Assembly (NCBI RefSeq): GCF_030064675.1
Contig: NZ_CP116413.1
Coordinates: 5,860,001-5,924,000 of the forward strand
Reading direction: 5' to 3'
Source of the DNA: Crossiella sp. CA-258035
Lineage (GTDB): Bacteria > Actinomycetota > Actinomycetes > Mycobacteriales > Pseudonocardiaceae
Length of the DNA stretch: 64,000 nt
Shown: positions 10,538-43,383 of the stretch, one piece after another
Position numbering within the stretch: position 1 is the stretch's first letter
Layout of the letters: each line of letters begins with the position of its first letter
Translations under genes and position numbers: made by a program
The notes under the pieces: generated by a model
What the model was told of the DNA's origin: nothing
Seen by the model: the letters and a program-made list of their open reading frames with translations, nothing else
The model's database searches: none

Positions 10538-10550
10538 GGTGGGGTGGGGG

Positions 10551-11990: not shown

Positions 11991-12045
11991 AACGGCTCCT
12001 CGCGCCATCGGCTGCATGCTCACTGCCGTTGGTACACGCGCTGGG

Positions 12046-12061
12046 GTAGGGACTTCCCCAG
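12046..12061 (-). promoter_or_regulatory. PimM-like box upstream of the 2,3-dehydratase gene
   Basis: The plus strand reads GTAGGGACTTCCCCAG, 14 of 16 against the PimM consensus, counting the inner T-for-W change as a mismatch. It lies 56-71 bp upstream of ATG 11990 and just past the asnB stop codon. Confidence 0.65.
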
Positions 12062-12064
12062 AGT

Positions 12065-26229: not shown

Positions 26230-26689
26230 GCAGCGGACCTGGGCGCTGCTGCGCGAGCTGGACACCGCCGAGCACCCCCGCGACTACAACAGCACCGCCA
26301 ACCGGGGCCGGTTCGAGCAGCTGGTGACCCGGGTGGAGGCGAGCTTCGGCCACTGCTCGGTCGAGCGCGAGGCGCAGTGGGTTCCGCACCACGGCACCAT
26401 CGTCATCCCGGCCGAGGCGACCGCCTCCACCGAGCACCTCACCCTCACCGTCTCCAACTTCGGCTCGCTGGTGGCGGTGACCCTGGGCAACCCGGGCAGC
26501 CACGACCAGGAAGAGGAGGACGTGCTCTTCGAGCAGGCCGACCGCGATCGCATCGGCGCGGCGCTGGCCGCCCTCGGCTACCACGCCATCTCCGAGCACC
26601 TGCTGTGGCAGACCTACGACGGGGCCGCCCCGCACCACAGCCGCCACGGGCGGTTCAGCTGGTGGGACCGCTTCTTCGACTACCTGTGA
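26216..26689 (+). CDS. Conserved hypothetical protein
   Basis: This 157-residue acidic protein is probably soluble, with no signal peptide or membrane segment. It has a central beta-rich part (HLTLTVSNFGSLVAVTLGNPG) and an aromatic C-terminus (FSWWDRFFDYL). I do not recognise the family. Its ATG is inside the end of the tetR gene, so it is co-translated with it. Its last 35 nt overlap the converging MFS gene. Confidence 0.75.
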   Translation: MFLDEQRTWALLRELDTAEHPRDYNSTANRGRFEQLVTRVEASFGHCSVEREAQWVPHHGTIVIPAEATASTEHLTLTVSNFGSLVAVTLGNPGSHDQEEEDVLFEQADRDRIGAALAALGYHAISEHLLWQTYDGAAPHHSRHGRFSWWDRFFDYL

Positions 26690-27962
26690 CCGGGCGGAAG
26701 GCCGGATCCCGGCCGAGCAGCAGCGTGCACCCCGCCGCGAGCAGCATGAACCCGGCGATGACCAGCATCCCGGCCCGGTAGTCCCCGGTCAGGTCGCGCA
26801 GCCAGCCGGTCAGGTAAGGGGCGAGGAAGCCGGAGGTGTTGGCCAGCGAGGCGATCACCGCGATGCCGCCGCTGGCCGCCGCCCCGGTCAGGAACGCGCC
26901 GGGCAGCTGCCACCACACCGGCAGGGTGATGAACGCGCCCACCGTGGTGACCGTGATCGCCAGCATGACCAGCACCGGCGAGTCCAGGTACAACGCGAGG
27001 CCCAGCGCCAGCGCGGCCGGGACCAGCGGGACGGCGATGTGCCGGATGCGCTCGCCGGTCCGGTCGGAGTGGCGGGCGTACCACCACATGGACAGCGCCG
27101 CCGCGGCCGAGGGCGCCGCGGCCACCAGGCCGATCTTGACAGTGGAAAGATCGCCGCGCAGACCGGCCACGATCTGCGGCAGGAAGAAGGTCAGCGCGTA
27201 CAGCCCGCCGCTGATGCCGAAGCCGATCAGCGCGATGAGGTAGACCCGCCGGTCCCGCAGGGCCGCGCGCAGCGAGCTCCGGCCGTGCCCGGCCACGTCC
27301 TCCCGGTCGGCGTCCAGCGCGGCGCGCAGCGCGGTCGCCTCCTCGGCGGGCAGCCAGCGGGCGGTCTCCGGGCGGTCCGGCAGCAGCACCAGCACCAGTC
27401 CACTGAGCAGCAGTGCGGGCAGGCCCTCGGCCAGCAGCATGAACCGCCAGCCGGCCAGCTCGATCAGCAGTGTGGACAGCGGGGTGCCGACGGCCACGGT
27501 GACCGGGACGGCCAGCATGAACAGCGCGGTGACCTGGCCGCGCTCGCGCCGGGGGAAGAACTCGGTGAGGTAGAGGATCATGCCGGGCAGGAACCCGGCC
27601 TCGCACACCCCGAGCAGGAACCGGAGCAGGTAGAAGCCGGTCTCGTCCTGGATGAACGCGGTGCCGGTGGCGCACAGGCCCCAGCCCAGGGTGATCACCG
27701 CGATCCACCGGCGCGCGCCGACCCGGCGCAGCACCTGGTTGCTGGGCAGCTCGAACAGCGTGTAGCCGACGAACAGCAGTCCCGCGCCCAGGCCGAAGAC
27801 GGTGCTGCTGAAGCCGAGCTCGGCGTTCATCCGCACCGCGGCCACACCGACGTTGACCCGGTCCAGGTAGTTGACGAAGTACAGCACCGCCAGGAACGGC
27901 AGCAGCCGCCAGCGGGCCCGGCCGATCGCGCGGGTGAGCGGGTCTGGCGTCAGTGCACGCAG
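26655..27962 (-). CDS. MFS transporter, anion:cation symporter (ACS) family
   Basis: About 435 residues with 12 predicted membrane segments. It carries the ACS features YFVNYLDRVNVGVAA in helix 1 and the RRVGARRW loop after helix 2. Relatives move organic anions such as sugar acids, and the mammalian sialin is in the same superfamily branch. No ATG, GTG or TTG is usable near the expected N-terminus. The candidates are CTG 27962, placed 9 nt after GGAAGG, and CTG 27953, which overlaps the VOC stop as CTGA. It is the last gene of the nanA-gntR-voc operon. Confidence 0.85.
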   Translation of the reverse strand: MRALTPDPLTRAIGRARWRLLPFLAVLYFVNYLDRVNVGVAAVRMNAELGFSSTVFGLGAGLLFVGYTLFELPSNQVLRRVGARRWIAVITLGWGLCATGTAFIQDETGFYLLRFLLGVCEAGFLPGMILYLTEFFPRRERGQVTALFMLAVPVTVAVGTPLSTLLIELAGWRFMLLAEGLPALLLSGLVLVLLPDRPETARWLPAEEATALRAALDADREDVAGHGRSSLRAALRDRRVYLIALIGFGISGGLYALTFFLPQIVAGLRGDLSTVKIGLVAAAPSAAAALSMWWYARHSDRTGERIRHIAVPLVPAALALGLALYLDSPVLVMLAITVTTVGAFITLPVWWQLPGAFLTGAAASGGIAVIASLANTSGFLAPYLTGWLRDLTGDYRAGMLVIAGFMLLAAGCTLLLGRDPAFRPVTGSRRSGPTS

Positions 27963-28378
27963 AACTCGTTGCCTTCCACATCGGCCATGGTCACGAAGTA
28001 CTGCCCGCGCTCGCGTCCGGTGCGCGCCACCGTCCCGCCACGCGCGCACAACCGCGCCACCAGCGCGTCCACCTTGGCGATCTTCTCAGCCAGCTCGTCG
28101 CCGGGCGCGGTGGCCTGGATGTCCAGGTGCAGCCGGTTCTTGCCCTGTTTCTCCTCCGGCACGCCGAGGAAGCAGATCCGGCCGTCGCCGCCCGGCTCGA
28201 CCACCGAGGCGAACTCGGCCACCTCCTCGGCCGGGAAACCCTTGGCCCGCTGGAACTCCAGCCAGCTGGGCTGCCCGTCCGGCGGGTCCTGGACGCGGTA
28301 GTCCAAGGCGCAGGCCCAGAACTCGGCCATCAGGTCCGGGTTCCGGCAGTCGACGACCACCTGGAAGGCGCGTGGCAT
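27950..28378 (-). CDS. VOC superfamily (glyoxalase-like) protein
   Basis: This 142-residue protein has two beta-alpha-beta-beta-beta modules starting AFQVVVDCRNPDLMAEFWACAL and NRLHLDIQA. It ends DVEGNEFCVH, with the conserved DPEGNEFC-type metal-binding glutamate. The Glyoxalase_6-type fold does not indicate a substrate. It lies 18 bp after gntR in the same operon. Confidence 0.85.
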   Translation of the reverse strand: MPRAFQVVVDCRNPDLMAEFWACALDYRVQDPPDGQPSWLEFQRAKGFPAEEVAEFASVVEPGGDGRICFLGVPEEKQGKNRLHLDIQATAPGDELAEKIAKVDALVARLCARGGTVARTGRERGQYFVTMADVEGNEFCVH

Positions 28379-28396
28379 ACCGCCAGCATTCCACGA

Positions 28397-29110
28397 TCAG
28401 CCCGAGCGCAGCTGGGCCACCCTCGTGTCCAGGTTGCGGAAGTGCTCGGTCATCGCGGCCGCCGCGCGGTCGGCATCCCGCTTGCGCAGCGCGGTCACGA
28501 TGGCCCGGTGCCTGCGCACGGTCTGCATCGGGTTGGGGTCGGTGACGCCCAGGCGGTGGTTGACCCGGTGGAAGACGTCCCAGAACGCGCGCAGCAGCTG
28601 GGTCAGCAGCGCGTTGTCCAGGCAGCGGTAGAGCACCTCGTGGAACTCGCGGTCCTGCTCGGCGAAGGTCTCCCCGCTCTTGGCCCGCTCGCTCATCCGC
28701 TTGGTGACCTCGTCCAGCCCGGCCAGGTCGGCGGCCGGGATGATCTCGGCCACCCGGCGGATCAGCACCCCCTCCAGCGCCTCGCGCACCTCGACGATCT
28801 CCTCCATCGAGCGCAGGTCGCGGCCGATGTCGTGCAGCACCCGGAAGGTCAGCCCGTCGGCCAGCGGATCGAGGGACAGCCGGCCGACGTAGGTGCCGAA
28901 GCCGTGCCGGATCTCCACGATGTCCAGTGCCTGCAAGGCTTTCAGCGCCTCGCGCACGGAGTTGCGGCTCACCCCGAAGGTCTCGACCAGCTCGGTCTCG
29001 GTGGGCAGCGGGTCACCCGACTTCAGGCCGCGGCTGAGGATCAGCCCGGTGATCTCGTCCCGGATCGCCCGGTTCATCCGGGTGGCCAGCCTGGGCTCCT
29101 GCTGCGTCAC
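28397..29110 (-). CDS. GntR regulator, FadR subfamily; likely sialic-acid/sugar-responsive repressor
   Basis: This 237-residue regulator has a winged helix (about 10-75: PLPTETELVETFGVSRNSVREALKAL). The all-helical FCD effector domain follows. The start is GTG 29110, preceded by AGGAGG at 7 nt; an upstream ATG lies on the wrong side of that site. It is co-transcribed with the nanA-like gene. Corynebacterial NanR, which controls sialic acid genes, is also a FadR-type GntR. The shared element at 30107-30123 and 43334-43350 is its probable operator. Confidence 0.9.
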   Translation of the reverse strand: MTQQEPRLATRMNRAIRDEITGLILSRGLKSGDPLPTETELVETFGVSRNSVREALKALQALDIVEIRHGFGTYVGRLSLDPLADGLTFRVLHDIGRDLRSMEEIVEVREALEGVLIRRVAEIIPAADLAGLDEVTKRMSERAKSGETFAEQDREFHEVLYRCLDNALLTQLLRAFWDVFHRVNHRLGVTDPNPMQTVRRHRAIVTALRKRDADRAAAAMTEHFRNLDTRVAQLRSG

Positions 29111-29137
29111 GATTGGACCTCCTGCATCCAGCAAACC

Positions 29138-30052
29138 TTAGAGCAGACCGGCCTGCGCCAGGTGGGCGCGCACCGCGGCGCGCTCGGTGTCGTTCAGCGG
29201 GATCATCGGTTCGCTGGTGACCGGGTTGGCGATCACGCCGAGCGCGGCCAGGCCCTCCTTGAACGCGCCGATCGCCGAGGAGTAGCGGCCCATCCGGCCG
29301 TCGCCGACGTGGATCAGCTGGAAGAGCTTGCGCAGCCGCAGTTGTTCGGCGCGGGCGGCGTCCCAGTCGCCCCGGGCGGCCGCCTGGTAGAGGCGGACGT
29401 AGCCGTGCGGGTCCAGGTTGCCGATGCCCGGCACCAGGCCGTGCGCGCCCAGGAACAGTCCGAGGTCGGCCAGGGTCTCCGAGCCGGAGTAGCAGTGGAA
29501 GACCGAGCGGTCGGTGCGTTCCAGCACCGCGCGCAGGCCGTCCAGGTCGCCGCTGGAGTCCTTGAGCCCGGCCAACGTGCCGTCCTCGGCCAGCTCCTCC
29601 ACCACCTCCACCGGCAGCTTGCTGCCCACCGAGGCCGGGATGTCGTAGGCCAGCAGCGGCAGGTCGACCGCGGCCCGGATGGCCCGGAAGTGGCCGGGGA
29701 ACTCGCTGGGGTGGGTGGGCGCGTAGAACGGCGCGGTGGCCACCAGCGCGTCCGCGCCGAGTGCCTTGGCCGCGCGGGCGTGCTCCAGCACCCGGGGCGT
29801 GGTGGTGTCGATGATCCCGGCCAGCACCGGCACCTGGCCCGCGGCCACTCCGGCGACCACTTCCAGCGCTCGCTGGCGGAGCTGGTCGGGCAGGTAGGCG
29901 ACCTCGCCGGTGGAGCCGGTGACGAACAGCCCGTGTACGCCGGCGTCGAGCAGGTGGGCGGTGAGGCGTTCCAGCGAGGGCACGTCCAGGTCGCGCTGGC
30001 TGGTCAGCGGGGTGCACACGGGTGGCACGACACCGCCGTGGAGCTGGGTCAC
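29138..30052 (-). CDS. DHDPS/N-acetylneuraminate lyase family aldolase
   Basis: This 304-residue class I aldolase has the GSTGE motif (VTGSTGEVAYL), YDIPASVG with the catalytic tyrosine, and GLKDSSGD with the Schiff-base lysine. The GSTGE form and the genomic setting favour N-acetylneuraminate lyase (Neu5Ac to ManNAc and pyruvate) over lysine synthesis. 2-Keto-3-deoxy sugar acid aldolase or dehydratase activity remains possible. The start is GTG 30052, with GGGAGAAG upstream. It is the first gene of the nanA-gntR-voc-MFS operon, divergent from the beta-galactosidase. Confidence 0.85.
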   Translation of the reverse strand: MTQLHGGVVPPVCTPLTSQRDLDVPSLERLTAHLLDAGVHGLFVTGSTGEVAYLPDQLRQRALEVVAGVAAGQVPVLAGIIDTTTPRVLEHARAAKALGADALVATAPFYAPTHPSEFPGHFRAIRAAVDLPLLAYDIPASVGSKLPVEVVEELAEDGTLAGLKDSSGDLDGLRAVLERTDRSVFHCYSGSETLADLGLFLGAHGLVPGIGNLDPHGYVRLYQAAARGDWDAARAEQLRLRKLFQLIHVGDGRMGRYSSAIGAFKEGLAALGVIANPVTSEPMIPLNDTERAAVRAHLAQAGLL

Positions 30053-30106
30053 GAGCTTCTCCCTTGCGGAGCGGAACCGGTGGGGCCTACGGTCGCCTGA
30101 CATCCT

Positions 30107-30123
30107 ACGTCCGATGTCCAATG
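30107..30123. promoter_or_regulatory. Candidate GntR/NanR operator, copy 1
   Basis: The plus strand reads ACGTCCGATGTCCAATG. It differs at one base from 43334-43350. An outer inverted repeat, GACATC (upstream) with GATGTC, overlaps it. It lies in the divergent gap of the nanA operon and the GH42 gene, so one site could control both. Confidence 0.65.
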
Positions 30124-30143
30124 TCCAGCCAGTGCGAGGTCCC

Positions 30144-32144
30144 GTGAGCTCAGTGGTGCGCGACCGGCTCGGCCGGTTCGCCTTCGGCGCCGACTACAAC
30201 CCGGAGCAGTGGCCGGAGGAGGTCCAGGACGAGGACGTGGCGCTGATGCGCGCGGCCGGGGTGAGCCTGGTGTCGGTGGGCATCTTCAGCTGGGCGGTGG
30301 CCGAGCCGGAGCCGGGCCGGTACCAGTTGGACTGGCTGGACCGGGTGCTGGACCGGTTGGCCGCCAACGGGATCGGCGCCTGCCTGGCCACCATGACCGC
30401 CTCCCCGCCGCCCTGGCTGGCGCACCGGCACCCGGAGACGCTGCCCCGCCGCGCGGACGGCACCCTGCTCTCCCCCGGCGCGCGGCAGCACTACTGCCCG
30501 TCCAGCCCGGTCTACCGCGCCTGCGCCGCCGAGCTGGTGGAGACCCTGGCCACCCGCTACGCCGGGCATCCCGCGCTGGCCATGTGGCACGTGAACAACG
30601 AGTACGGCTGCCACGTACCGGAGTGCTTCTGCGACGTCTCGGCCGCCGCCTTCCGCGGCTGGCTGGCCGAGCGCTACCAGGGCGTCGACGGACTGAACGA
30701 GGCGTGGTCCACCACGTTCTGGTCGCAGCGCTACCACGAGCTGGCCGAGGTGCGCCCGCCGCGCACCGCGCCGACCTTCCCGAATCCCGCGCAGGTGCTG
30801 GACTACAAGCGGTTCTCCTCACACGCGCTGCTGGAGTGCTTCCTGCTGGAGAAGGAGATCCTGCGCCGGGTCACCCCGGAGGTGCCGGTGACCACGAACT
30901 TCGTCGGGGCCTGGCACCGGATCGACGTGGCCTCCTGGGCACCGCACCTGGACGTGGTCTCCTACGACTCCTACCCAGACCCGCACGACCCGGACACCGT
31001 GGTGCAGGCCGCTTTCGCCTACGACCAGATGCGCGCGCTGCACGGGAAACCGTGGCTGCTGCTGGAACAGGCGCCCAGCGCGGTGAACTGGCGCACCCGC
31101 AACGCGCCCAAGGCGCCCGGTCAGATGCGGCTGTGGAGCTACCAGGCGGTGGCCAGGGGCGCGGACGCGGTGATGTACTTCCAGTGGCGGCAGTCCCGCG
31201 GCGGCGCGGAACGCTTCCACTCCGCGATGGTGCCGCACGCCGGTCCGAGCGCCCGCGCACACCGGGAGACCGCCGCGCTCGGCGCGGAGCTGGCCCGGCT
31301 GGAACCGTTGCTGGGCAGCGGAACCGACGCTTCGGTGGCACTGCTGGCGGACTGGTGCAGCGGCTGGGCGGTGCAGGGCAGCGCGCTGCCCTCGGCCGAT
31401 CTGTCCTTCGAGGACACCAACCTGGCCCACTACCGTCCACTGTGGACTGCCGGGATCGCGGTGGACGTGGTGTCGGCGCAGGCCGACCTGAGCCGCTACC
31501 GGCTGCTCGTGGTGCCCAGCCTCTACCTGGTGGACCAGCCGGTCGCCGCCCGGCTGGTGGAGTACGTGCGCGCGGGCGGGCACCTGGTGCTGTCCTTCTT
31601 CTCCGGCATCGCAGACAGCGCGGACCGGGTGCACCTGGGCGGCTACCCCGGCCCGTTCCGCGAGTTGCTCGGGCTCACCGTGGCGGAGTTCTGGCCGCTG
31701 CCTGCCGACGGCGTGATCGCGCTGGAGTCCGGTGGCACCGGCCGGATCTGGTCGGAGTGGATCACCCCGGCGGGCGCGGAGGTGCTGGACCGCTTCGCCA
31801 AGGGCGAGCTGACCGGACTCCCGGCGATCACCCGGCACGCCTTCGGCGCGGGGGTGGCGACCTACCTGGGCACCCGGCCGGATGAGGCAGGCATGGCCGA
31901 GGTGCTCGGCCGGGCACTGGCCGACGCGGGTGTCGAACCGGTGCTGGCCGGGCTGCCTGCGGGAGTGGAGGTGGCCGAGCGCCGTGGTGACCAGCGGTGG
32001 CTGTTCCTGTTGAACCACAACACTTCCGAGGTGACCGTGCCGGTGCCCGGGGGCGCGGTGGACGGCCTGACCGGCGAGCCGCTCGGCACGGCGGAACGGC
32101 TCGCCGGTCGCGGTGTGCTGGTGGCGCGGCTGCCCCTGGCCTGA
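30144..32144 (+). CDS. GH42 beta-galactosidase, cytoplasmic
   Basis: About 666 residues with the GH42 opening GADYNPEQWPEEVQDEDVALM. The acid/base Glu is in MWHVNNEYGC and the nucleophile Glu in WLLLEQAPSAVNW. The beta-galactosidase trimerisation domain follows (about 390-590). No signal peptide is present, so it acts on imported galactosides. The start is uncertain: GTG 30144 lies close behind GAGGT, while ATG 30114 would overlap the putative operator. In this locus it would remove galactose exposed after desialylation. Confidence 0.92.
   Translation: MSSVVRDRLGRFAFGADYNPEQWPEEVQDEDVALMRAAGVSLVSVGIFSWAVAEPEPGRYQLDWLDRVLDRLAANGIGACLATMTASPPPWLAHRHPETLPRRADGTLLSPGARQHYCPSSPVYRACAAELVETLATRYAGHPALAMWHVNNEYGCHVPECFCDVSAAAFRGWLAERYQGVDGLNEAWSTTFWSQRYHELAEVRPPRTAPTFPNPAQVLDYKRFSSHALLECFLLEKEILRRVTPEVPVTTNFVGAWHRIDVASWAPHLDVVSYDSYPDPHDPDTVVQAAFAYDQMRALHGKPWLLLEQAPSAVNWRTRNAPKAPGQMRLWSYQAVARGADAVMYFQWRQSRGGAERFHSAMVPHAGPSARAHRETAALGAELARLEPLLGSGTDASVALLADWCSGWAVQGSALPSADLSFEDTNLAHYRPLWTAGIAVDVVSAQADLSRYRLLVVPSLYLVDQPVAARLVEYVRAGGHLVLSFFSGIADSADRVHLGGYPGPFRELLGLTVAEFWPLPADGVIALESGGTGRIWSEWITPAGAEVLDRFAKGELTGLPAITRHAFGAGVATYLGTRPDEAGMAEVLGRALADAGVEPVLAGLPAGVEVAERRGDQRWLFLLNHNTSEVTVPVPGGAVDGLTGEPLGTAERLAGRGVLVARLPLA
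31435..31447. repeat. 13-bp palindrome copy 2 (inside the GH42 gene)
   Basis: GTCCACTGTGGAC. Its codon frame differs from the other four copies, so the motif is kept at the DNA level. Confidence 0.9.
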
Positions 32145-32219
32145 AGCTGCCACCGGCTGTACCAGCCCCGCCGCTCGCCCCACCCTGGACCGGTCGGGAG
32201 TTGACGGAGGGGCGATCCA

Positions 32220-32411
32220 GTGGCCGGTCGGTGGAGGTGGCTGCTCGCGGTCGCCGTTGGCGCGGCCGCGCTCGGTGGCTGCACTTCAGCTCCCACCGGC
32301 GTGACCTCAGCTGACGCGGTGCCCCACCTGGAGTCGTTCGTCGAGGGCTCCGCGCCGCATGGCGGGCCGGGCCTGGCACCTCCGCGAGGACCCCTTGCCC
32401 CACCCGGCTGA
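32220..32411 (+). CDS. Short putative lipoprotein
   Basis: A 63-codon frame starts at GTG 32220 after a strong GGAGGGG site at about 8 nt. It encodes a charged N-terminus, a hydrophobic stretch (LLAVAVGAAALGGC) and a lipobox cysteine at about residue 21, then about 40 Ser/Pro/Gly-rich residues. It could be a real small lipoprotein or the truncated remnant of a longer one. Nothing indicates a function. It ends 4 bp before the converging SARP gene. Confidence 0.5.
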   Translation: MAGRWRWLLAVAVGAAALGGCTSAPTGVTSADAVPHLESFVEGSAPHGGPGLAPPRGPLAPPG

Positions 32412-32415
32412 CCAG

Positions 32416-33156
32416 TCAGGCCACCGCCAGCACCCGCTGCCGGGCCGCCTGCAACTCCCGCCCCGGCGGAATCTGCAGCTCCTCCCACAGCAGCCCCTTG
32501 ATCTGCCGGTACGCCGCGAGCGCGTCCGCCCGCCGCCCGGCCCGCTCCAGCGTGCTCACCAGCCGCGCCCACACCTGCTCGTCGTAGGGCTGCGCGGCCA
32601 CCGACTGGCGCAGCACCACCACCGCCTCCGGGTACCGCTTCCTGGCCAGCAGCGCGGTCACCAGGCCGGAGCGGCCGCGGTCCCGCAGCTCGGTCAGCCG
32701 GGTCTGCTCGGCCAGCGCGCACATGCCCAGGGAGCTGAACGGGGTGCCCCGCCACAGCCGCAGCGCGCTGTCGAACCCGGTGGCGGCCGCGTCGTGGTCG
32801 CCGTCGGCCAGCGCCCGGTGGCCTGCCGCGAGCAGGGTCTCGAACTCGGTGACGTCCAGGGTGGCGCGGCCGGGGTTGAGCCGGTAGGCGCCGCGGGTGC
32901 TGTCGATGCTGAGCGCGCCGAGCGGGACGAGCCGCTTGCGCCACTGGCAGACGAACGCGCGCAGGTTGACCGAGGCCGAGGGTGGCGGCCGGTCACCCCA
33001 CAGCGCCTCTACCAAGCGGTCGGTGGGGCACCATTGGCCGCGCCAGAGCGCCAGCGCGGTCAGCAGGGTCTGCGGGCGGGCGGAGAGCAGCGGCAGCGGC
33101 CGGTCCGCGTGCCACAGCTCCAGGTGGCCGAACAGCCGGAGCACGGTCTTGTCCAT
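32416..33156 (-). CDS. SARP-family regulator (OmpR-type HTH plus BTAD)
   Basis: This 246-residue protein has a winged-helix DNA-binding domain (about 1-95) followed by the all-helical BTAD (about 98-240). There is no ATPase or membrane segment. The start is ATG 33156, preceded by GAAAGGG. It diverges from a second SARP gene that carries a transmembrane extension. The pair may regulate the neighbouring glycan genes, the shared 159-bp promoter region, or both. Confidence 0.9.
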   Translation of the reverse strand: MDKTVLRLFGHLELWHADRPLPLLSARPQTLLTALALWRGQWCPTDRLVEALWGDRPPPSASVNLRAFVCQWRKRLVPLGALSIDSTRGAYRLNPGRATLDVTEFETLLAAGHRALADGDHDAAATGFDSALRLWRGTPFSSLGMCALAEQTRLTELRDRGRSGLVTALLARKRYPEAVVVLRQSVAAQPYDEQVWARLVSTLERAGRRADALAAYRQIKGLLWEELQIPPGRELQAARQRVLAVA

Positions 33157-33287
33157 GTGGGCCCTTTCTCCATCGGGGGCCATCACCTTGCGCGGACGGG
33201 GTACAGCGGGCGTTCAGGGAGAGTTCTGCCGGGCACCAGAGGTGTCCGGAGCACTACTGGTAGTCACGGTGCGGGTCTGGCAAGCTC

Positions 33288-33301
33288 TGACCGCGAGGTC
33301 A
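33288..33301. promoter_or_regulatory. Palindrome in the divergent SARP promoter region
   Basis: TGACCGCGAGGTCA has 5-bp arms (TGACC/GGTCA) and lies 14 bp before GTG 33316. It could be an operator or a chance palindrome overlapping the leader. Confidence 0.35.
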
Positions 33302-33315
33302 GCGAGGGGGCGGGT

Positions 33316-34953
33316 GTGCTGTTCAGGGTGTTCGGGGTGCTGGAGGTGCACGGGCCGGACGGGGTGCTGGAGTTCGCCGCGGACAAGCCCCGCCGGATGC
33401 TCTCCGCCCTGCTGCTGCACGCCAACCGCTGGGTGCCCGACCACGAGCTGGTCGAGGCGATCTGGCCGGCCGGCGCGCCGGTGTCGGCGGCGGGCAACGT
33501 CAAGACCTACGCCAGCCAGGTGCGCAAGCTGCTCGCCCCGTTCGACACCCAGCCCGGCCGGTTGGAACGACGGCCGGGGGCCTACCGGCTCACCGTGGCC
33601 CGCGCCGAGCTGGACACCATGGTCTTCGAGGACCGGATCGGCCAGGCGGAGGCGGTGCTCGGCGCGGACCCGGCGCGGGCCGCCGAGCTGGTCACCGAGG
33701 CGCTGGCGCTGTGGCGCGGCGAGCCGTTCGACTCCCTCGCGGTGGAGGCGGCCGAGGTCGAGCAGGCCCGGCTGACCGAGCTGCGCTGGTCGGCCCGGCA
33801 CACCCTGGCCGACGCGCTGGTCGCGGCGGGCAGGCACCGGGAGGCGATCGGCCTGCTGCGCGCGATGACCACCGAGGACCCGCTCAAGGAACCGACCTGG
33901 CTGCGCCTGCTGGCCGCGCTGGACGCCGGTGGGCGACGGGCCGAGGCGCTGCTGGCCTACCAGGAGGCGCGCCGGGCCATCGTGACCGAGCTGGGTATCG
34001 AGCCGGGCGCGGCCCTGCGCGAGGCGTACCAGCGGGTGCTGGTGACCGACCCGCCCACCGCGCCGGACTGGCAGGCCGCCACTCCGCCACCCGCGCGACC
34101 CGCCGCCGCGCAAGCTCCCGCCAGCCCCGCCGACCCAGCCACCCCCACCGCCCCGCAGGCTCCCGCCGCCCCGCCACCCGAGCCACCACCCCCGCCTGCC
34201 AGGTCGCGGCTGCGGCGGTCGCGGTGGATCGTGGCCGCCTCGCTCGCGCTGACCGCGGTGCTGGCCGCGGGCGTGCTGACCGCGATCCGCTGGTGGCCGG
34301 ACAACTCTCCCCAGCCGGCCACCGCCGCGGAGCGGTTCGGCTGGGGCCAGCCGGTGCACGCCGCGGAGTTCCGCACCGGCCTCGACGACGGCTGGACCGC
34401 GGTGGGCCCGCGGCCGGGGCAGCACGGCAAGGGCAGGCAGATCCCCGAGCGGGTCAGCGTGCGCGACGACGTGCTGACCATCACCGGCGACGCCAACGGC
34501 GACACCGGCTACCTCGCCCGCGACGAGGGTTCCTTCCGCACCCGCTGGGAGGCGCGGGTGCGAGTGCCCGCGGGCTGCGCCTGCTACCGCCCGCTGCTCA
34601 CCCTGTGGCCGGTCAAGAACGACTTCCCGGCGGGCGGCGAGATCGTCTTCCTGGAGGTGTTCGACCCGGAGCGGCAGACCGCGCACTTCTTCCTGGCCGA
34701 TGAGAACACCAAGGACAACCGGTACACCGCGTCGCGCGCGGTCGACATGACGAAGTGGAACCACTTCGCGGTCGAGTGGACCGAGAACGAGCTCACCGGC
34801 TACATCAACGGCGAGAAGTGGTTCCACACCGCGCAGCGGGACAAGCTGCCGCCGAGGCCGATGCGCCCGACCATCAAGCTGGACGCGACCATGACCACCG
34901 AGTTCCGGCCGGCCACCATGGAGGTGGACTGGATCCGCGAGTACCGGAGCTAG
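33316..34953 (+). CDS. Membrane-spanning SARP with an extracytoplasmic GH16-like domain
   Basis: A 545-residue protein with four parts. Residues 1-95 form an OmpR-type winged helix and 98-245 a BTAD, as in SARPs. Residues 250-300 are a Pro/Ala-rich linker. A single membrane segment at about 302-322 (WIVAASLALTAVLAAGVLTA) precedes a C-terminal GH16-like beta-sandwich (about 335-545), which includes WNHFAVEWTENELTGYING. The GH16 catalytic motif E-x-D-x-x-E reads EIVFLE here (E442, V444, E447), so the middle Asp is lost. That suggests glycan sensing, not hydrolysis, as in ToxR/CadC-type one-component regulators. The start is GTG 33316 after GAGGGGG. It converges on the sialidase gene with overlapping stops (CTAG). 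Confidence 0.88.
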   Translation: MLFRVFGVLEVHGPDGVLEFAADKPRRMLSALLLHANRWVPDHELVEAIWPAGAPVSAAGNVKTYASQVRKLLAPFDTQPGRLERRPGAYRLTVARAELDTMVFEDRIGQAEAVLGADPARAAELVTEALALWRGEPFDSLAVEAAEVEQARLTELRWSARHTLADALVAAGRHREAIGLLRAMTTEDPLKEPTWLRLLAALDAGGRRAEALLAYQEARRAIVTELGIEPGAALREAYQRVLVTDPPTAPDWQAATPPPARPAAAQAPASPADPATPTAPQAPAAPPPEPPPPPARSRLRRSRWIVAASLALTAVLAAGVLTAIRWWPDNSPQPATAAERFGWGQPVHAAEFRTGLDDGWTAVGPRPGQHGKGRQIPERVSVRDDVLTITGDANGDTGYLARDEGSFRTRWEARVRVPAGCACYRPLLTLWPVKNDFPAGGEIVFLEVFDPERQTAHFFLADENTKDNRYTASRAVDMTKWNHFAVEWTENELTGYINGEKWFHTAQRDKLPPRPMRPTIKLDATMTTEFRPATMEVDWIREYRS

Positions 34954-37859
34954 CGGAGCTGGGTGAAGGTGATGGTCTCGTACGGTCCGCGCACCCCCGT
35001 CTCGTACAGCAGACCCACCGTGGACCCGTTGAGCCGCACCAGGTCCGAGTAGGCGGCCGGGGCTTCGGAGACCCGGTGCAGCTGCCACCAGGTCCGGCCG
35101 TGGTCGGTGCTGGCCCGGACCGACATCGCCCGGCGGGCGGCCGGGTCGGCGGGTCCGGAGTACAGCAGCAGACCGGGATCGTCCGTCTGAAGCACGCTGC
35201 CCTGCACCCTCGGGCCTTCGATCGTCCTTTGTGGACGGTAAGGCGAGCTCAGGGTGCGGCCGCCGTCGTGGCTGACCGCGTCCAGCCTGCCCGCGAGCGT
35301 GCCCTGGTTGCGGCTGGAGAAGTACAGGCGGCCGTCCGGCAGCTGGGCGACGGTGGTCTCGTTGGCCGCGATCTGAGTGTCGGCGCGGTCCTCGGTGAAG
35401 CCGATCCGCCAGGTGTGGCCGCCGTCGTCGCTGAGCAGGGCGTGCCCGCCGTGGTACTTCTGCTCGGCGCCGGTGTCCGCCGAGCCGGACGGTGGCGCGC
35501 TGGAGTGGTTGGCGGGCACCACGATCCGGCCCTGCCGGGTGGTGATCGCGTGGCCGGGGCCGGTGGCGTACCAGCGCCAGTCCGGCTTCTTCGCCGCCGA
35601 GGTGATCTCCCGTTCCGGCGTCCAGCTGCGGCCGTTGTCCCTGCTGCGCTGGAGGAACACCCGCCGGGTGTCGGCCGGGGCCACCGCGCCGGTCATGATC
35701 TCCCGTTCGGTGACCGGGCCGTTGCGGGTGGTCAGCAGCAGGACTTCGCCGCCGGGCAGCGCCACCGGGGCCGGGTTGCCCGCGGTGGCCTCGCCGTTGC
35801 GGGAGACCACCGACAGCGGTCCCCAGGTGCAGCCGCCGTCGCTGGAGCGGCGCAGCACCACGTGGATCGCGCCGGTGTCGCCCGCGGAGTGCACCCGGCC
35901 CTCGGCGAAGGCCAGCACCTCGCCGGAGCTTGCCCGCACCACCGCGGGGATGCGGAAGGTGTGGTAGCCCTCGGTGCCGGCGGTGTAGGGCACGGAGGTG
36001 CAGGGGGTGGGCTGGATGGAGTCCAGAGGCAGCCGGAGCACCTGACCGTCCGGCAGGTCGGCGTTGCTCAGCCGGAGGCGGTCCAGTTCGGCCTTGGTCA
36101 GCGCGCGGGTGTGCAGCCGGACCTCGTCCAGCGCGCCGTCGAAGCGCTGCGTGTGGTCCAGGCGCTGGCCCAGCACGAGTTGGAAGGACACCCGCTGGGT
36201 CACCGAGCCCGCCACCGCGGCGGCCGAACCGGCCTGCACACCGTCCACCCAGAGCAGCAGCCGTCCCGCCGACCGTTGCAGCGCAACGTGGTGCCACTGG
36301 TTGTCGTCGTGGGCATTGGCGGTGGCCACCGAGCTGCTGCCGCTGGGCGTGGTGATCCGGGCGACCAGCCGCTTGTTCGCCGGTTCGGCGCGCAGCCACA
36401 GCTGCGGCGCGCTCTCCCCCATGCCGCCCAGCCACAGCAGGACCTGTTCGCGCTGGGTCCCGCCGTAGCGGAACCAGGTGCTGAAGGTCAGCTCGCCGTC
36501 GCCGGGCAGCCGGGCGCGGTCGTAGGGCACCCGCAGGTAGTCGTCCGCGCCGTCCAGTTCCAGGGCTTTGCCGAACCTGCCTGCGGTGAGCGCGGGACCG
36601 CCGATCGCGTTGGCGTGCTTGTGGATCCGGGACGTGTCGGGAGTGGCCGGACCGGCCGGGTTGCGCCAGCCGAGGTCGTCCTCGGTGAAGCGGGTGAACC
36701 GGATCTCGTCCCTGGCGTCGACCTTGCCGCCCTCGTACAGCAACCCGATCCGGGCGCTGGGCGTCGACGGGTCGCTGAGCTGCACCAGGTCGGAGTAGCC
36801 GGACCAGTCCGAGGTGATCCGGGTGCCCTGTTCGGCGTTCTCCCAGCTGCGGCCGTGGTCGTAGGAGGAGCGGATGGTCATCCACCGGCGGCGGTCGGTG
36901 TCGGCGGGCGCGGAGAACAGCAGCCGGTCCGGGCGGCCGGTGCGTTCCAGCCGCAGCACCGCGCCCTGCACGGTGGGCATGACCAGGTCCGGGATGGCCT
37001 GGAACCGCTGGCTGAAGGTGGCACCGCCGTCCTTGCTGATCGCGAAGCTGTGGTTGCCGACCGCGCTGCCGCCCTGTTCCCGCGCCCCGGCGTAGATCGA
37101 GCCGTCGGCCAGCTCGGTGACGGTGAGCTCCTGTGGTTTCAACGGGAACGGCCCGCCGGGCGGGAACGTGATGCTGTCCACCGCGCCGACCTGCCAGGTC
37201 TTGCCGTGGTCGTCGCTGTAGACCAGGGCGGCCTCGTTGGCCACCGACTTGCTGCTGCCCCGGTCGCTGGTCTCGCCGCACACGCCGAAGACCAGGCGTC
37301 CCTTGTGCGGGCCCCGGGTGAGCTGGATGCCGTGGCCGGGACCGGTGGCGTACCAGTAGTCCCAGGCAGGCAGCTTGACCTGGGCGCTCATCTCCACCGG
37401 CGCCGACCAGGTGAGCCCGTCGTCGTCGCTGTGCTGCACGTGCGGGGTGCGTTTGCACGGCACGTCACAGGGTTTGTCGTCGGTGCGGCCCTTGTTGTAG
37501 CTGGTGAACAGGAAGATCCGGCCGGTGTCGTGGTCCACCACCGGCACCGGGTTGCCGTGGGTGTCCCCCTTGCCCTCGTTGACCAGCCGCAGCGGCGACC
37601 AGGTCTGCCCGCCGTCGGTGGAGCGTTTGAGCACCACGTCGATGTCGCCGGTGTCCCCGCAGTTGAGCACCCGGCCCTCGGCGAAGGCCAGCAGCGAGCC
37701 CTGCGCGGTGCGCACCACGGCGGGGATGCGGAAGCAGTGGTAGCCGGTTTCGTTGGCGGCCTTGAACAACGCCTGCTCGACCGGTTGCGCGGCCGCGACC
37801 GGTGCGGTCAGTCCGGCCAGGAGCAGGAGTAACAGGGAGAACAACGCTGTCACGCGCAC
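34950..37859 (-). CDS. Secreted sialidase with two GH33 domains flanking a LamG-like domain
   Basis: This 969-residue protein has an N-terminal signal peptide (LFSLLLLLLAGLTAPVAAA). The first GH33 domain (about 30-400) starts YHCFRIPAVV and the second (about 630-965) starts YHTFRIPAVV; FRIP holds the first arginine of the triad. Both have several Asp boxes (STDGGQTW, SDDGGHTW and similar). A concanavalin/LamG-like domain (about 430-600: LELDGADDYLRVPYD, WHHVALQ) lies between them. It would release terminal sialic acid from glycans outside the cell. Tandem catalytic domains are unusual. It is the last gene of the transporter operon; its start is GTG 37859, after GAGGAAA. Confidence 0.93.
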   Translation of the reverse strand: MRVTALFSLLLLLLAGLTAPVAAAQPVEQALFKAANETGYHCFRIPAVVRTAQGSLLAFAEGRVLNCGDTGDIDVVLKRSTDGGQTWSPLRLVNEGKGDTHGNPVPVVDHDTGRIFLFTSYNKGRTDDKPCDVPCKRTPHVQHSDDDGLTWSAPVEMSAQVKLPAWDYWYATGPGHGIQLTRGPHKGRLVFGVCGETSDRGSSKSVANEAALVYSDDHGKTWQVGAVDSITFPPGGPFPLKPQELTVTELADGSIYAGAREQGGSAVGNHSFAISKDGGATFSQRFQAIPDLVMPTVQGAVLRLERTGRPDRLLFSAPADTDRRRWMTIRSSYDHGRSWENAEQGTRITSDWSGYSDLVQLSDPSTPSARIGLLYEGGKVDARDEIRFTRFTEDDLGWRNPAGPATPDTSRIHKHANAIGGPALTAGRFGKALELDGADDYLRVPYDRARLPGDGELTFSTWFRYGGTQREQVLLWLGGMGESAPQLWLRAEPANKRLVARITTPSGSSSVATANAHDDNQWHHVALQRSAGRLLLWVDGVQAGSAAAVAGSVTQRVSFQLVLGQRLDHTQRFDGALDEVRLHTRALTKAELDRLRLSNADLPDGQVLRLPLDSIQPTPCTSVPYTAGTEGYHTFRIPAVVRASSGEVLAFAEGRVHSAGDTGAIHVVLRRSSDGGCTWGPLSVVSRNGEATAGNPAPVALPGGEVLLLTTRNGPVTEREIMTGAVAPADTRRVFLQRSRDNGRSWTPEREITSAAKKPDWRWYATGPGHAITTRQGRIVVPANHSSAPPSGSADTGAEQKYHGGHALLSDDGGHTWRIGFTEDRADTQIAANETTVAQLPDGRLYFSSRNQGTLAGRLDAVSHDGGRTLSSPYRPQRTIEGPRVQGSVLQTDDPGLLLYSGPADPAARRAMSVRASTDHGRTWWQLHRVSEAPAAYSDLVRLNGSTVGLLYETGVRGPYETITFTQLR

Positions 37860-37877
37860 GGCGGGTTTCCTCTCGGC

Positions 37878-38834
37878 TCACAGCTCCGGGTGGACACAGC
37901 GGTAGGTGTGCTCGCCGAGGACGGTGAGCGGGGGCAGTTCGGCGGCGCACTCGGCGGTGGCCTTCCAGCAGCGGGTGCGGAAGTTGCAGCCGCTGGGCGG
38001 GTTGGTGGCCGAGGGCACCGGTCCATTGAGGACGATCGGCTCGACGGCGTGCCGCAGGCTCGGCGTGGCCGAGAACAGCGCGCGCATGTAGGGGTGGCGG
38101 GCGGCGGCGGGCACCGCGGCGGCCGGGGCGCGTTCCACGATCCGGCCCAGGTACATGGTGACGATGTGGTCGCTCATCCGCTGCACGGTCTGGATGTCGT
38201 GCGAGACGAACACCATGGCCAAACCGAGCCGTTCGCGCAGCTCCACCAGCAGGTTGAGGATCTGCGCGCGCACGGACACGTCCAGCGCCGAGGTCGGTTC
38301 GTCGGCGACCAGCAGCGCGGGCCGCAGCGCCAGTGCCCGCGCGATGGCCACCCGCTGCCGCTGCCCGCCGGAGAGCTGGCCGGGCACCGCGTCCGCCACG
38401 CTGTCCGGCAGGCCCACCAACGACATCAGCTCGCGCACCCGGTCGGCGCGTTCGGCGGGAGGGCCCTCGCGGTGCACGTCCAGCGGATCGCGGATGATCT
38501 TGGCGATCGGCAGGCGGCGGTTGAGCGCGGTGGCCGGGTCCTGGAAGATCATGCCCACATCACGCCCGAACTTGCTGGCGCGTGCGGTCGCGGTCATCTG
38601 CCACAGCGACTCGCCGCGGTAGCGCACGGTGCCCTGGGTGGGCCGTTGCAGGCCGACGATCACCTTGGCCAGCGTGGACTTCCCGCAGCCGGACTCGCCG
38701 ACCACGCCGATGGTCTGCCCGGCGGCCAGGGTGAGGCTGGCGTCGGTTAGCGCGTAGACGTGATCGTGGCCGAACAGTCGGGCGGCGCGGATCCGGTGCA
38801 CCACATGGACGCCGTCGAGTTCCAGCAGGCTCAT
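37878..38834 (-). CDS. ABC transporter ATPase, Opp/Dpp family (SiaI-like)
   Basis: This 318-residue protein has Walker [10 protein letters not shown], the LSGGQRQR signature and Walker [15 protein letters not shown]-terminal cysteine cluster ([14 protein letters not shown]) is typical of DppF/OppF. It pairs with the ATPase half of the fusion protein upstream, which it overlaps by 4 nt (ATGA). The sialidase gene starts 18 bp downstream. The sialic acid assignment rests on gene order and neighbours. Confidence 0.92.
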
Positions 38835-40735
38835 CGCGCCTCCAGCAGCTCGGTCCGCTCCGCCGGGAAGTGGCAGGCGATGAGGTGGTCTGCCTGGTCG
38901 CCGATCCGCTCCGGCGGTTCCCGGTGGCAGACCGCGCGGGCGGCCGGGCAGCGGTCGGCGAAGCGGCAGCCGGGCGCGAAGTCGGCCGGCGAGGGCACCA
39001 CACCCTTGATCTGGGTCAAGGTTTCCCGTTTGTCCTCAAGGGAAAGCACCGCGGAGAGCAGGCCGCGGGTGTAGTGGTGCCGAGGTGAGCCGACGATCTG
39101 CGCCGTCGCGCCGAGCTCGGCGACCTGGCCGCCGTACATCACCACCACCCGGTCGGCGATCTCGGAGACCAGCGCGAGGTCGTGCGAGACCAGGATCAGC
39201 GCGAAGCCCAGCTCGGCCCGCAACCGCAACAACAACTGCACGATCTGGGCCTGCACGGTGACGTCCAGCGCGGTGGTCGGCTCATCGGCCACGATCAGCC
39301 CAGGACTGCGGGAAAGCGCCATCGCGATGAGCACCCGCTGCCGCTGCCCGCCGGAGAGCTCGTGCGGGTAGGCGCCCAGTGTCCTTTGCGGATCGAGGTT
39401 GACCAGTTCGAGCAGCTCGGCCGGGGAGCGGGTGCCGCCCCGGCGGGTGAACTGCTTGAGCTGGCTGCGAATGGTCATCGCCGGGTTGAGCGAGCTGAGC
39501 GCGTCCTGGTAGATCATCGCCAGGTCCTGGCCGAGGTAGCGGCGGCGCTGCCGGGGCGTCAGGCCGAGCAGGTTCTCCCCGGCGAAGCGGATCTCCCCGG
39601 AGACGCGGGCGTTGTCCGGCAGCAGGCCCATGATGGCCAGCGAGGTCAGCGACTTGCCGCAGCCGGACTCGCCGATCAGGCCGAGCACCTCACCGGCGCG
39701 CACCGTGAACGACACCTCGTCGACCACGTTGACCCCGTTGTGCCGGTCCGGGAAGGAGATCGCGAGCTTGGACACGGCCAGCACGGTCTCCCGGTCGGCC
39801 AGGTCGCGGGCGCGCCGGTGCAGCCGCTCCCCCGCCTCGCGCAGTCCCTCGATCGGCAGCACCGGCTCGGCACCGGCCGGTTCTTCGCTGGTGGCAACGG
39901 CTTTCGCCACCTGACCGGCCTGCGCGCGCCGGGCCGAGGGGGTGGCCCAGGCATCCGAGATGCCCTCGGAGAGCACGTTCAGCGCGAGCACGGTGACCAG
40001 GATGAGCAGGCCGGGGAACAGGGTGGCCCACCAGCCGCCGGTGAGCACCAGGTCCTTGCCGTTGGCCAGCACCGAGCCCCAGGACGGGTCCGGCTGCTGG
40101 ATGCCCGCGCCGATGAAGGACAGCGATGCCTCGAACACGATCGCGTCGGCCACCATCACCGTGCAGAACACCAGCACCGGCGCGGCGCAGTTGACCGCGA
40201 CGTGCTTGAGCAGGATGTAGGCCCGGCGGGCGCCGATGATCCGTTCCGCGGCCACGTAGTCCTCGCGGTACTGGGCCAGCACGTTCGCCCGCACCACCCG
40301 CGCCACCGAGGGCGTGTTCAGGAAGGCGATGGCCAGGACCAGCACCTCGATGCCGCGGCCGAACACCGCGACCAGCACCGCGGCCAGCGCGATGCCGGGG
40401 AAGGCCATCACCACGTCCAGGACCCGCATCGCGGTCTCGTCCAGCGCGCGCCGCGAGGTGGCGGTGACCGCGCCGATCACCGCACCGGCCACCAGGGCCA
40501 GCGCGGTGGCGCCCAGGCCGATGGCCAGCGACCAGCGGGCGCCGTGCAGCAGCCGGGCGAAGATGTCCCGCCCGGCGGAGTCGGTGCCGAACCAGTGTTC
40601 CGCACTCGGCCGGGCCACCGCGGCGCCGGTCAGGTAGGGGTCCCCGGCGATGAGCGGGGCGAGCAGGGCCAGCAGTGCCAACAGGACCAGCACCGCGAGG
40701 GCGAGCAGGGACGGGAGCTTGAGGCGGCGCGTCAC
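38831..40735 (-). CDS. ABC transporter permease-ATPase fusion, Opp/Dpp family (SiaG-like)
   Basis: This 634-residue protein joins a DppC-like permease (about 1-270, five to six membrane segments) to a DppD-like ATPase (about 310-634). The permease has the EAA-type loop AAERIIGARRAYILLKHV. The ATPase has Walker [25 protein letters not shown] and the terminal cysteine motif CRFADRCPAARAVC. The same fusion occurs in the corynebacterial sialic acid transporter SiaEFGI, from memory. It overlaps the genes on both sides by 4 nt. Confidence 0.92.
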   Translation of the reverse strand: MTRRLKLPSLLALAVLVLLALLALLAPLIAGDPYLTGAAVARPSAEHWFGTDSAGRDIFARLLHGARWSLAIGLGATALALVAGAVIGAVTATSRRALDETAMRVLDVVMAFPGIALAAVLVAVFGRGIEVLVLAIAFLNTPSVARVVRANVLAQYREDYVAAERIIGARRAYILLKHVAVNCAAPVLVFCTVMVADAIVFEASLSFIGAGIQQPDPSWGSVLANGKDLVLTGGWWATLFPGLLILVTVLALNVLSEGISDAWATPSARRAQAGQVAKAVATSEEPAGAEPVLPIEGLREAGERLHRRARDLADRETVLAVSKLAISFPDRHNGVNVVDEVSFTVRAGEVLGLIGESGCGKSLTSLAIMGLLPDNARVSGEIRFAGENLLGLTPRQRRRYLGQDLAMIYQDALSSLNPAMTIRSQLKQFTRRGGTRSPAELLELVNLDPQRTLGAYPHELSGGQRQRVLIAMALSRSPGLIVADEPTTALDVTVQAQIVQLLLRLRAELGFALILVSHDLALVSEIADRVVVMYGGQVAELGATAQIVGSPRHHYTRGLLSAVLSLEDKRETLTQIKGVVPSPADFAPGCRFADRCPAARAVCHREPPERIGDQADHLIACHFPAERTELLEAR

Positions 40736-41688
40736 GAGTGGCTCCGCAGGCGTGGGTTGGCGATCAGGTAGAGGATGTCGACGATCAGGTTGACCAGCAC
40801 GAAGCCCAGCGCGATCGTGATCACGAAGCCTTGCACCTTCGCGGTGTCACCGTCGGTGACCGCCTGGATCATGTTCTGCCCCATGCCCGGCAGCGCGAAC
40901 ATGGTCTCGATGACCACCGCGCCGCCGAGCAGGTAGCCCAGCCGCAGGCCGAGCACGGTGAGCGGGGTGACCATCGCGTTGCGCAACACGTTGCGCCCCA
41001 CCACGACCACCGGCGGCAGCCCGCCGCCGCGGGCGGTGCGCACGTAGTCCTTGTCCAGCTCCTCCACCATCGAGGTGCGGATGATCCTGGTCAGCTGGGC
41101 GGCCACCGGCAGCGCGAGGGACACCGCGGGCAGCGCCATCGAGTTCAGCCAGCCACCGAGGGAGTCGGCCGGGCTGATGTAGCCGCTGGTGGGAAACAAG
41201 CCTTGGCCGACGGCCAGCCACTGCACCAGCAGCAACGCGATCCAGAACGCGGGCGCGGCCACCCCGGCCAGCGTGACCAGCCGGATCAGCTGGTCCGGCC
41301 AGCGGTCCCGGAACAGCGCCGAGAGCACGCCCAGCGGCACCGCCAGCAGCAGGCTGATCACCAAGCCCAGCAAGGTGAGTTGCACGGTGAGCGGCAGCGC
41401 GGTGGTGATGGTCTCGGCCACCGACTGCTTGGTGATCAGGCTGGTGCCGAAGTCACCGTGCAGCAGCAGCCAGACGAAGCGCAGGTACTGCACCGGCAAC
41501 GGGTCCAGCAGCCCGTTCTCCCGCCGGAACCGCTCCAGCTGCTCCGGGGTCGCGTTGGCCCCGTCGAAGGCGGCCAGCGCCGGGTCCACCGGGGAGAAGC
41601 GCATCACCACGAACACGAACAGGGTGACGCCGAGCAGCAGCGGCACCAGCGCCAGCAGCCGCCCGAGCAGCATCCGCAGCACGATCAA
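40732..41688 (-). CDS. ABC transporter permease, DppB family (SiaF-like)
   Basis: This 318-residue integral membrane protein has six segments. It has the DppB N-terminal signature (LLLGVTLFVFVVMRFSPVDP) and the coupling loop LDKDYVRTARGGGLPP. It forms the channel with the permease half of the fusion protein. It starts 12 bp after the binding-protein stop. Confidence 0.92.
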   Translation of the reverse strand: MIVLRMLLGRLLALVPLLLGVTLFVFVVMRFSPVDPALAAFDGANATPEQLERFRRENGLLDPLPVQYLRFVWLLLHGDFGTSLITKQSVAETITTALPLTVQLTLLGLVISLLLAVPLGVLSALFRDRWPDQLIRLVTLAGVAAPAFWIALLLVQWLAVGQGLFPTSGYISPADSLGGWLNSMALPAVSLALPVAAQLTRIIRTSMVEELDKDYVRTARGGGLPPVVVVGRNVLRNAMVTPLTVLGLRLGYLLGGAVVIETMFALPGMGQNMIQAVTDGDTAKVQGFVITIALGFVLVNLIVDILYLIANPRLRSHS

Positions 41689-41700
41689 GGCAGCCTCCGC

Positions 41701-43308: not shown

Positions 43309-43333
43309 CCGGCCTCCTCTGCTCTGAGATAGG

Positions 43334-43350
43334 ACGTCCCATGTCCAATG
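43334..43350. promoter_or_regulatory. Candidate GntR/NanR operator, copy 2
   Basis: The plus strand reads ACGTCCCATGTCCAATG, 16 of 17 identical to 30107-30123. It contains the palindrome GGACGTCC at its left edge (43332-43339). It lies 26-42 bp upstream of the binding-protein start. Confidence 0.65.
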
Positions 43351-43383
43351 ACTGGGCAACCATAGGGCGCGACCCCTGGCCGG

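Follow-up and report, generated by a model that had tools for sequence, protein, structure and literature searches.

A predicted membrane-spanning SARP with a GH16-fold sensor domain in Crossiella and other Pseudonocardiaceae

SARPs are the classical activators of antibiotic clusters, and the signals that reach them from outside are largely open. According to the available parts of the papers cited in this paragraph, SARPs are divided into small, medium (NB-ARC), large (TPR) and SARP-LAL regulators (PMC10972967, PMC12224297), SARPs bind direct repeats at 11 or 22 bp, those of AfsR being 11-bp direct repeats, and the -35 element of afsS is TTCAGC (PMC10936776). In the AfsK-AfsR and PknH-EmbR systems, Ser/Thr kinases phosphorylate SARP-type activators (PMC1262709). 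ToxR-like receptors, such as ToxR and the membrane-tethered OmpR-type activator CadC, carry a cytoplasmic OmpR-type DNA-binding domain, a linker, one helix and an extracytoplasmic sensor (PMC5430869), and RsgI6 of Clostridium thermocellum has one membrane-spanning segment and an extracellular GH10 domain of very low activity which still binds sugars (PMC4711584).

An uninterrupted open reading frame at 33316-34953 (+) in a 64,000-nucleotide stretch of Crossiella sp. CA-258035 (NZ_CP116413.1, positions 5,860,001 to 5,924,000; hereafter the window) encodes a single protein of 545 aa, in which a winged helix, a BTAD, a Pro-rich linker, one membrane helix and a GH16-fold domain follow each other from the N- to the C-terminus:

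33316..33609 (+): winged-helix (OmpR/SARP-type) DNA-binding domain, residues 1-98, by AfsR chain match, Trans_reg_C being sub-threshold
33610..34041 (+): BTAD, residues 99-242, PF03704 E 1.8e-31, 109.9 bits against a cut-off of 22.1
34051..34227 (+): Pro/Ala-rich linker with RSRLRRSR at its end, then a short pre-helix stretch, residues 246-304, from translation and pLDDT
34228..34287 (+): single transmembrane helix, about residues 305-324, mean Kyte-Doolittle 2.23
34333..34950 (+): GH16-fold sensor domain, residues 340-545, AlphaFold2 pLDDT 94.5 and pTM 0.91 from a 79-row alignment

The GTG start is preceded, with a gap of 5 nt, by an SD-like GAGGGGG (33304-33310), which sits within the stretch CGAGGGGGC common to the window and two other Crossiella genomes. 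Residues 14-248 were matched by the AfsR chain in the sequence search (E 5.9e-27), the Trans_reg_C score (20.7 against 26.2 bits) lay below the Pfam cut-off, and the Foldseek matches of the SARP half were AfsR and EmbR structures. The BTAD behind an OmpR-type winged helix that characterizes the SARP (AfsR/RedD) family is present, and the small SARPs share these two domains with AfsR, EmbR and the window protein. In the published classes the C-terminus is absent or consists of NB-ARC, TPR or LAL/AAA, whereas here it is a membrane helix and a GH16 fold, an arrangement outside those classes. No membrane-bound SARP was named in the open-access literature searched: in the available text of a 2024 SARP review the word membrane occurs a single time, where a figure legend names a histidine kinase, in that of a 2025 survey of 440 Streptomyces genomes it does not occur, and in those of PMC5819245 and PMC5300972 SARP and transmembrane words concern transporters or methods.

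Like the ToxR-like receptors, the protein joins an OmpR-type DNA-binding domain, a linker, a single helix and, with its outside location taken from the charge rule, an extracytoplasmic sensor in one chain; its output is a SARP with a BTAD, however, and its sensor a GH16 fold. To our knowledge, the known ToxR-like receptors have no BTAD; receptors of this type signal by dimerising, with no phosphorylation step. The 20 residues before the helix contain five K/R and the 20 after it two, and K/R are richer before the helix than after it in six of seven proteins, the seventh (L046) being equal (3 and 3). From this charge rule, together with hydropathy and the analogy with the kinases described below, we infer that the GH16-like domain is extracellular. 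These results bear out the sequence-only reading, which had described a single-frame winged helix, BTAD, Pro-rich linker, membrane segment and GH16-like domain, and they support its membrane-spanning SARP with the last domain outside, the placement following the charge rule.

The membrane helix was also considered as a generic SARP feature of the window's genome and rejected, as a strong helix after the BTAD was found in none of 40 of its 46 other SARP places; ten of those SARPs have weak hydrophobic stretches (1.64-1.91, against 2.23 in the window protein), eight of them after the BTAD. The full-length AlphaFold2 model is weak (pLDDT 69.9, pTM 0.40), with pLDDT below 50 for residues 246-342, and the domain arrangement cannot be read from it; the linker differs in length between homologues. 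In four pairwise comparisons the SARP part had dN/dS values of 0.21-0.29, the sensor had values of 0.18-0.47, and linker and helix together had values of 0.35-0.66; by these ratios the gene is under purifying selection.

The SARP-helix-GH16 protein recurs in three Pseudonocardiaceae genera, namely in four of five Crossiella genomes (it was not found in G016), in one of 24 genomes of genus g8 and in two of eight of genus g27. The copy of G086 is split inside the linker across two contig ends and is therefore counted as present, not as intact; the sensor part of the gene is 99% identical in Crossiella sp. SN42, and five other SARP fusions show 48-76% identity to the window protein. Since the same architecture is found in further genomes and genera, a frameshift or an assembly chimera of two genes is ruled out, and since the same Asp-to-Val change of the catalytic motif recurs with it, in each fused copy found (8/8), the observation goes beyond chance; the database check proposed with the sequence-only reading is thereby answered for both the architecture and the substitution. 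Among the matches listed (below 1e-36 and 1e-34), no further fused copy appeared in 397 genomes of the order and 396 of the phylum, where, with seven first-look candidates scored per genome and these limits, weaker fused copies may be missed. A sensor-domain match was present in at least 83 of 297 family genomes (up to nine candidates scored per genome), the fusion check in this search covering the fetched matches, and the unfetched ones including several open frames of 850-1076 aa. The order, phylum and family draws may overlap, and overlaps were left in. Matches occurred in 258 plasmid records, none with one place covering 80% of the protein.

The structure prediction called for in the earlier reading supported the fold of the sensor, whose model has the beta-jellyroll of GH16: the top three Foldseek matches are GH16 laminarinases (TMq 0.84-0.85, E from 1.8e-14), O-glycanases being found too, and the 79-row sensor profile finds a GH16 chain at E 7.9e-18. 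With PF00722 (GH16) the window protein stays below the cut-off (19.0 against 22.0 bits), and the L042 homologue passes it (22.7). Three sites within the domain are of interest:

34576..34584 (+): C421-x-C423 (sensor C82-x-C84), confined to regulator-fused copies, both Cys in 8/8 fused rows and neither in any of the 71 others
34639..34656 (+): E442-I-V444-F-L-E447, the GH16 E-x-D-x-x-E site with D replaced by V
34876..34878 (+): K521 (sensor K182) in place of Gln, K in 8/8 fused rows, Q in 71/71 others

The claim that EIVFLE keeps both glutamates and has lost the Asp to Val is correct. The alignment comprised 79 distinct domains, eight fused to a regulator and 71 non-fused, the latter without same-frame SARP, kinase or second-ectodomain matches at E 1e-3 (seven of the frames end at a locus edge). 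At the Asp site V is found in all eight fused rows and in none of the 71 others, which have 64 D and 7 N; the fused rows thus read E-x-V-x-x-E in place of the canonical catalytic motif, with both catalytic glutamates kept in all eight and the core Trp invariant. Besides, R86, N143, N159, P179 and K182 (sensor numbering) are present in 8/8 fused rows; among the 71 non-fused ones C82, C84, R86 and K182 are absent, N143 occurs once, and N159 and P179 occur four times each. A His present in 70 of the 71 is lost in six of the eight fused rows. With GH16 subfamily 3 (laminarinases, gut O-glycanases) the window sensor accordingly shares the fold and both catalytic glutamates, but it is without the Asp, has gained CxC, has Lys for Gln and is fused to a regulator. 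In a tree built without the signature columns the eight fused sensors lie on one side of a branch with support 99/94, two kinase-borne sensors being nested among the SARP-borne ones, and this single branch implies that the substitution and the fusion arose in one event rather than eight and persisted through long divergence. The GH16 domain with its altered active site is, judging from these residues, probably non-catalytic; some residual hydrolysis may persist, because both catalytic glutamates stay. Loss of the Asp in GH16 lowers activity and need not abolish it.

Two genomes, G108 and G055, have the same helix and GH16 sensor attached to a PknB-type Ser/Thr kinase domain (Pkinase E 1e-42), and these sensors also carry the V and CxC. 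That Ser/Thr kinases bear this module too speaks for a sensor role of the GH16 domain. Compared with the AfsK-AfsR and PknH-EmbR pairs, the window SARP directly carries a type of sensor that is found on kinases too.

In a survey of the SARP half (30 loci fetched, from 200 family genomes), a hydrophobic stretch right after the BTAD was seen at seven loci, five of the GH16 type, L158 and L161; one more locus, from G086, ends at a contig end ahead of the helix. The helix of L158 (hydropathy 2.61) is followed by a different ectodomain of about 300 residues, found in two settings:

L158:1420-3447 (G052), L174 (G120), L175 (G196): second ectodomain on SARPs
L009:3209-4963, L176-L188: second ectodomain, kinase versions

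This ectodomain was matched (E 1e-15) in 13 of 259 family genomes, on SARPs in three and with a kinase domain in ten; the kinase part of L187 lies outside the ectodomain's open frame, and G086 has a second, partial match (L189) near a kinase match. A GH16-like gene adjoins it in six of 17 loci (L174, L175, L176, L180, L181, L184). No Pfam, NCBIfam or PDB sequence match was obtained for it at the limits used, and we take it, as an impression, to resemble a clan-A glycosidase barrel. At L161:976-2277 (G131), a SARP continues into a possible membrane helix and then a bacterial Ig-like domain (Big_7 just below cut-off); RRRR precedes the hydrophobic stretch, whose value of 1.71 does not stand out from the 1.62-1.72 of stretches lying further along five other proteins.

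The membrane SARP gene lies among the following features of the window:

29910..32144 (+): GH42 beta-galactosidase, upstream neighbour, longest ORF with the true start probably later, PF02449 E 5.9e-150
32416..33186 (-): divergent soluble small SARP, start may be 33156, BTAD E 5.6e-29
33202..33228 (+): putative operator between the divergent SARP genes, with three TTCAG-like repeats spaced 11 bp apart
34950..37859 (-): sialidase-like protein, BNR repeats at both ends and LamG-like middle, BNR_2 E 9.8e-64

The sialidase gene is convergent with the membrane SARP gene and overlaps it by 4 nt. For the window itself, the position between a beta-galactosidase and a sialidase gene, divergent from a soluble SARP, was described correctly in the sequence-only reading; the expectation that this neighbourhood might recur failed, since no match to these neighbours was found around the regulator in the five homologous SARP-GH16 loci examined and the sialidase is matched (E 1e-40) in two of five Crossiella genomes, G000 and G086, both of the window's species. 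The sialidase and GH42 genes are thus ruled out as conserved context, and the sialic-acid context is particular to that species. The window at 26655-43359 resembles a sialic-acid use cluster, with a NanA-like DHDPS, a GntR/FCD regulator, an MFS protein, the BNR sialidase and a peptide-type ABC transporter.

Within Crossiella the gene pair recurs. The divergent soluble SARP is 77-78% identical, in the same arrangement, in G108 and G055, and the DNA homology of L042 (G108), 10533-13017 against window 34945-32429 at 79.7%, spans both SARP genes, the remaining L042 matches lying elsewhere in the window and not exceeding 442 bp. In these two genomes the pair stands among P450, B12-type radical SAM, alpha/beta hydrolase, SDR and aldo-keto reductase genes, with a terpene synthase-P450 gene in G055 only. 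G000 has this biosynthetic-type locus at 4.07 Mb, without the SARP pair. The locus (L198, that is G000:C1:4060000-4079900; L042; L044) encodes two B12-type radical SAM proteins and several P450s, and in G000, the genome of the window, as we read the open frames, RidA-like and ECF-sigma-like genes occupy the place of the pair. In L042 a GH5 cellulase with CBM6 is found about 2.6 kb past the soluble SARP; because this gene remains at the locus in G000, it is not part of what moves with the pair. In g8 the neighbours of the membrane SARP are TgpA/DUF58, fn3, RHS, M23 and EccD genes, and in G114 (g27) a WbsX-like gene (L052:1203-2927) lies about 20 bp downstream on the same strand, without a match at the G027 locus. 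At the loci examined no neighbour common to all three genera was seen.

The three TTCAG-like repeats of the shared promoter are all kept in G055, and the first two, not the third, in G108. They resemble the AfsR box at the sequence level. With up to one mismatch, the repeat pattern matches the window at 33202-33228 solely, a site after whose inspection the strict pattern was written, so its chance estimate is not independent. A looser pattern gave 19 matches in five Crossiella genomes, whereas its reversed control gave 4. Of the 19, three are the promoter of the pair itself (G000, G086, G055), the other 16 all fall outside the window and outside the fetched biosynthetic loci, and the other four of G000 recur in G086, which, being of the same species, adds little weight. 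Neither the sialidase region nor the scanned biosynthetic loci yielded such an operator, and a simple sigma-70 scan of 33100-33360 gave no promoter-like pair. As a candidate signature, the looser pattern so far marks no target beyond the SARP pair itself, and the conserved 11-bp TTCAG repeats suggest, as the simplest reading, that the pair is autoregulated. A near-match to the repeats occurs in two strains of the window's species (G000:C1:5640149-5640173 and G086:C45:36916-36940), about 3 kb from another SARP gene (G000:C1:5636881).

The reading we favour, and hold to be reasonably probable, is that of a transmembrane one-component regulator, a ToxR-like SARP with an altered GH16 sensor whose ligand drives SARP pairing on tandem 11-bp repeats. 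A flexible linker would join the cytoplasmic SARP (winged helix and BTAD) to a single membrane helix bearing the extracellular GH16 domain; this domain would bind a ligand, most likely a glycan or a glycan-like surface, and binding would change the pairing of the cytoplasmic SARP halves. Two halves would then lie next to each other on the tandem 11-bp repeats and recruit RNA polymerase in the manner of AfsR's soluble SARP domain, and the membrane SARP would autoregulate the pair and possibly control other genes. The layout suggests a simple path in which one protein connects a signal outside the cell with gene expression, and the modelled GH16 fold makes a glycan a plausible ligand. RsgI6 offers a parallel as a glycosidase-derived membrane sensor that is nearly inactive, but RsgI-type proteins, with an N-terminal RsgI domain, are anti-sigma factors working through a partner, SigI, whereas the window protein has sensor and transcription factor in one chain and a GH16 domain. 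No RsgI family match was found in it with Pfam/NCBIfam at E 0.1, its N-terminal half being a SARP.

The signal might instead pass by regulated proteolysis, in which sensing of a ligand or a stress by the ectodomain would lead to cleavage of the helix and release of the SARP half into the cytoplasm, as with RsgI-type fragments, a mode of activation that the sequence cannot distinguish from pairing at the membrane. Such release would suit the long low-confidence linker of the full-length model, and RsgI factors with sugar-binding or GH10 ectodomains signal via RseP cleavage in the helix (available text of PMC12203970, PMC4711584), but no protease gene was seen next to the SARP pair, and linker length, which varies among homologues, counts neither for nor against cleavage; we consider it rather unlikely. 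As to what the ectodomain does, the two glutamates and the Trp kept in all fused copies, and the full motif in 64 of 71 homologues on non-regulator proteins, would agree with a GH16 hydrolase that is still surface-anchored, the fused SARP merely reporting on it or anchoring it. The Asp-to-Val change in every fused copy against Asp or Asn in all others, the replacement of an otherwise invariant Gln by Lys and the frequent loss of the His speak against it, and little credence is given to this reading.

The CxC motif, exclusive to the fused copies, makes a redox or metal sensor possible in place of a glycan sensor; the Cys pair could equally be a structural disulphide, and R86, V105, N143, N159, P179 and K182 are also fixed, suggesting a remodelled cleft (a position taken from GH16 homology), which renders this alternative improbable. 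The placement of the pair between the sialidase and GH42 genes in the window's species would fit a switch for glycan foraging, particular to this species, that acts on the sialidase, transporter and GH42 genes next to it. However, the pair lies elsewhere in two other Crossiella genomes, both without a sialidase match, the operator pattern is confined within the window to the gap between the two SARP genes, and the GntR/FCD regulator beside the NanA-like gene is the more usual candidate, so that we hold a dedicated switch of this kind to be a slim prospect.

Beyond the favoured ToxR-like SARP, we propose tentatively, with slightly less than even confidence, that actinomycetes have a class of modular membrane SARPs which parallels the ToxR-like receptors and whose enzyme-derived ectodomains are traded with Ser/Thr kinases, and that the GH16 unit, the divergent SARP and the operator form a mobile two-gene cassette. 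If so, the GH16-type cassette could put different gene sets under an extracellular signal, antibiotic-type biosynthesis or glycan use according to the species. A SARP with an extracellular sensor of its own, lying in two genomes within the P450/radical-SAM biosynthetic-type locus, would link an environmental molecule directly, and in a testable way, to secondary metabolism and could provide a handle for waking silent clusters. The proteins described here also show a GH16 fold with an altered catalytic site put to new use as a sensor joined to two different outputs, and the second ectodomain is shared likewise.

Among GH16-like proteins elsewhere, one from the window's genome, encoded at L009:4967-6850, looks secreted and combines F5/8C, alginate lyase and GH16-like domains; its gene is convergent with the kinase gene carrying the second ectodomain. 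Some genomes of genus g5 (e.g. L017, L019, L023, L026, L029, L033, L082) have at least nine GH16-like matches, nine being scored per genome; many of the g5 proteins have one N-terminal hydrophobic stretch, and in seven g5 loci a second tandem GH16-like copy has N replacing the catalytic D.
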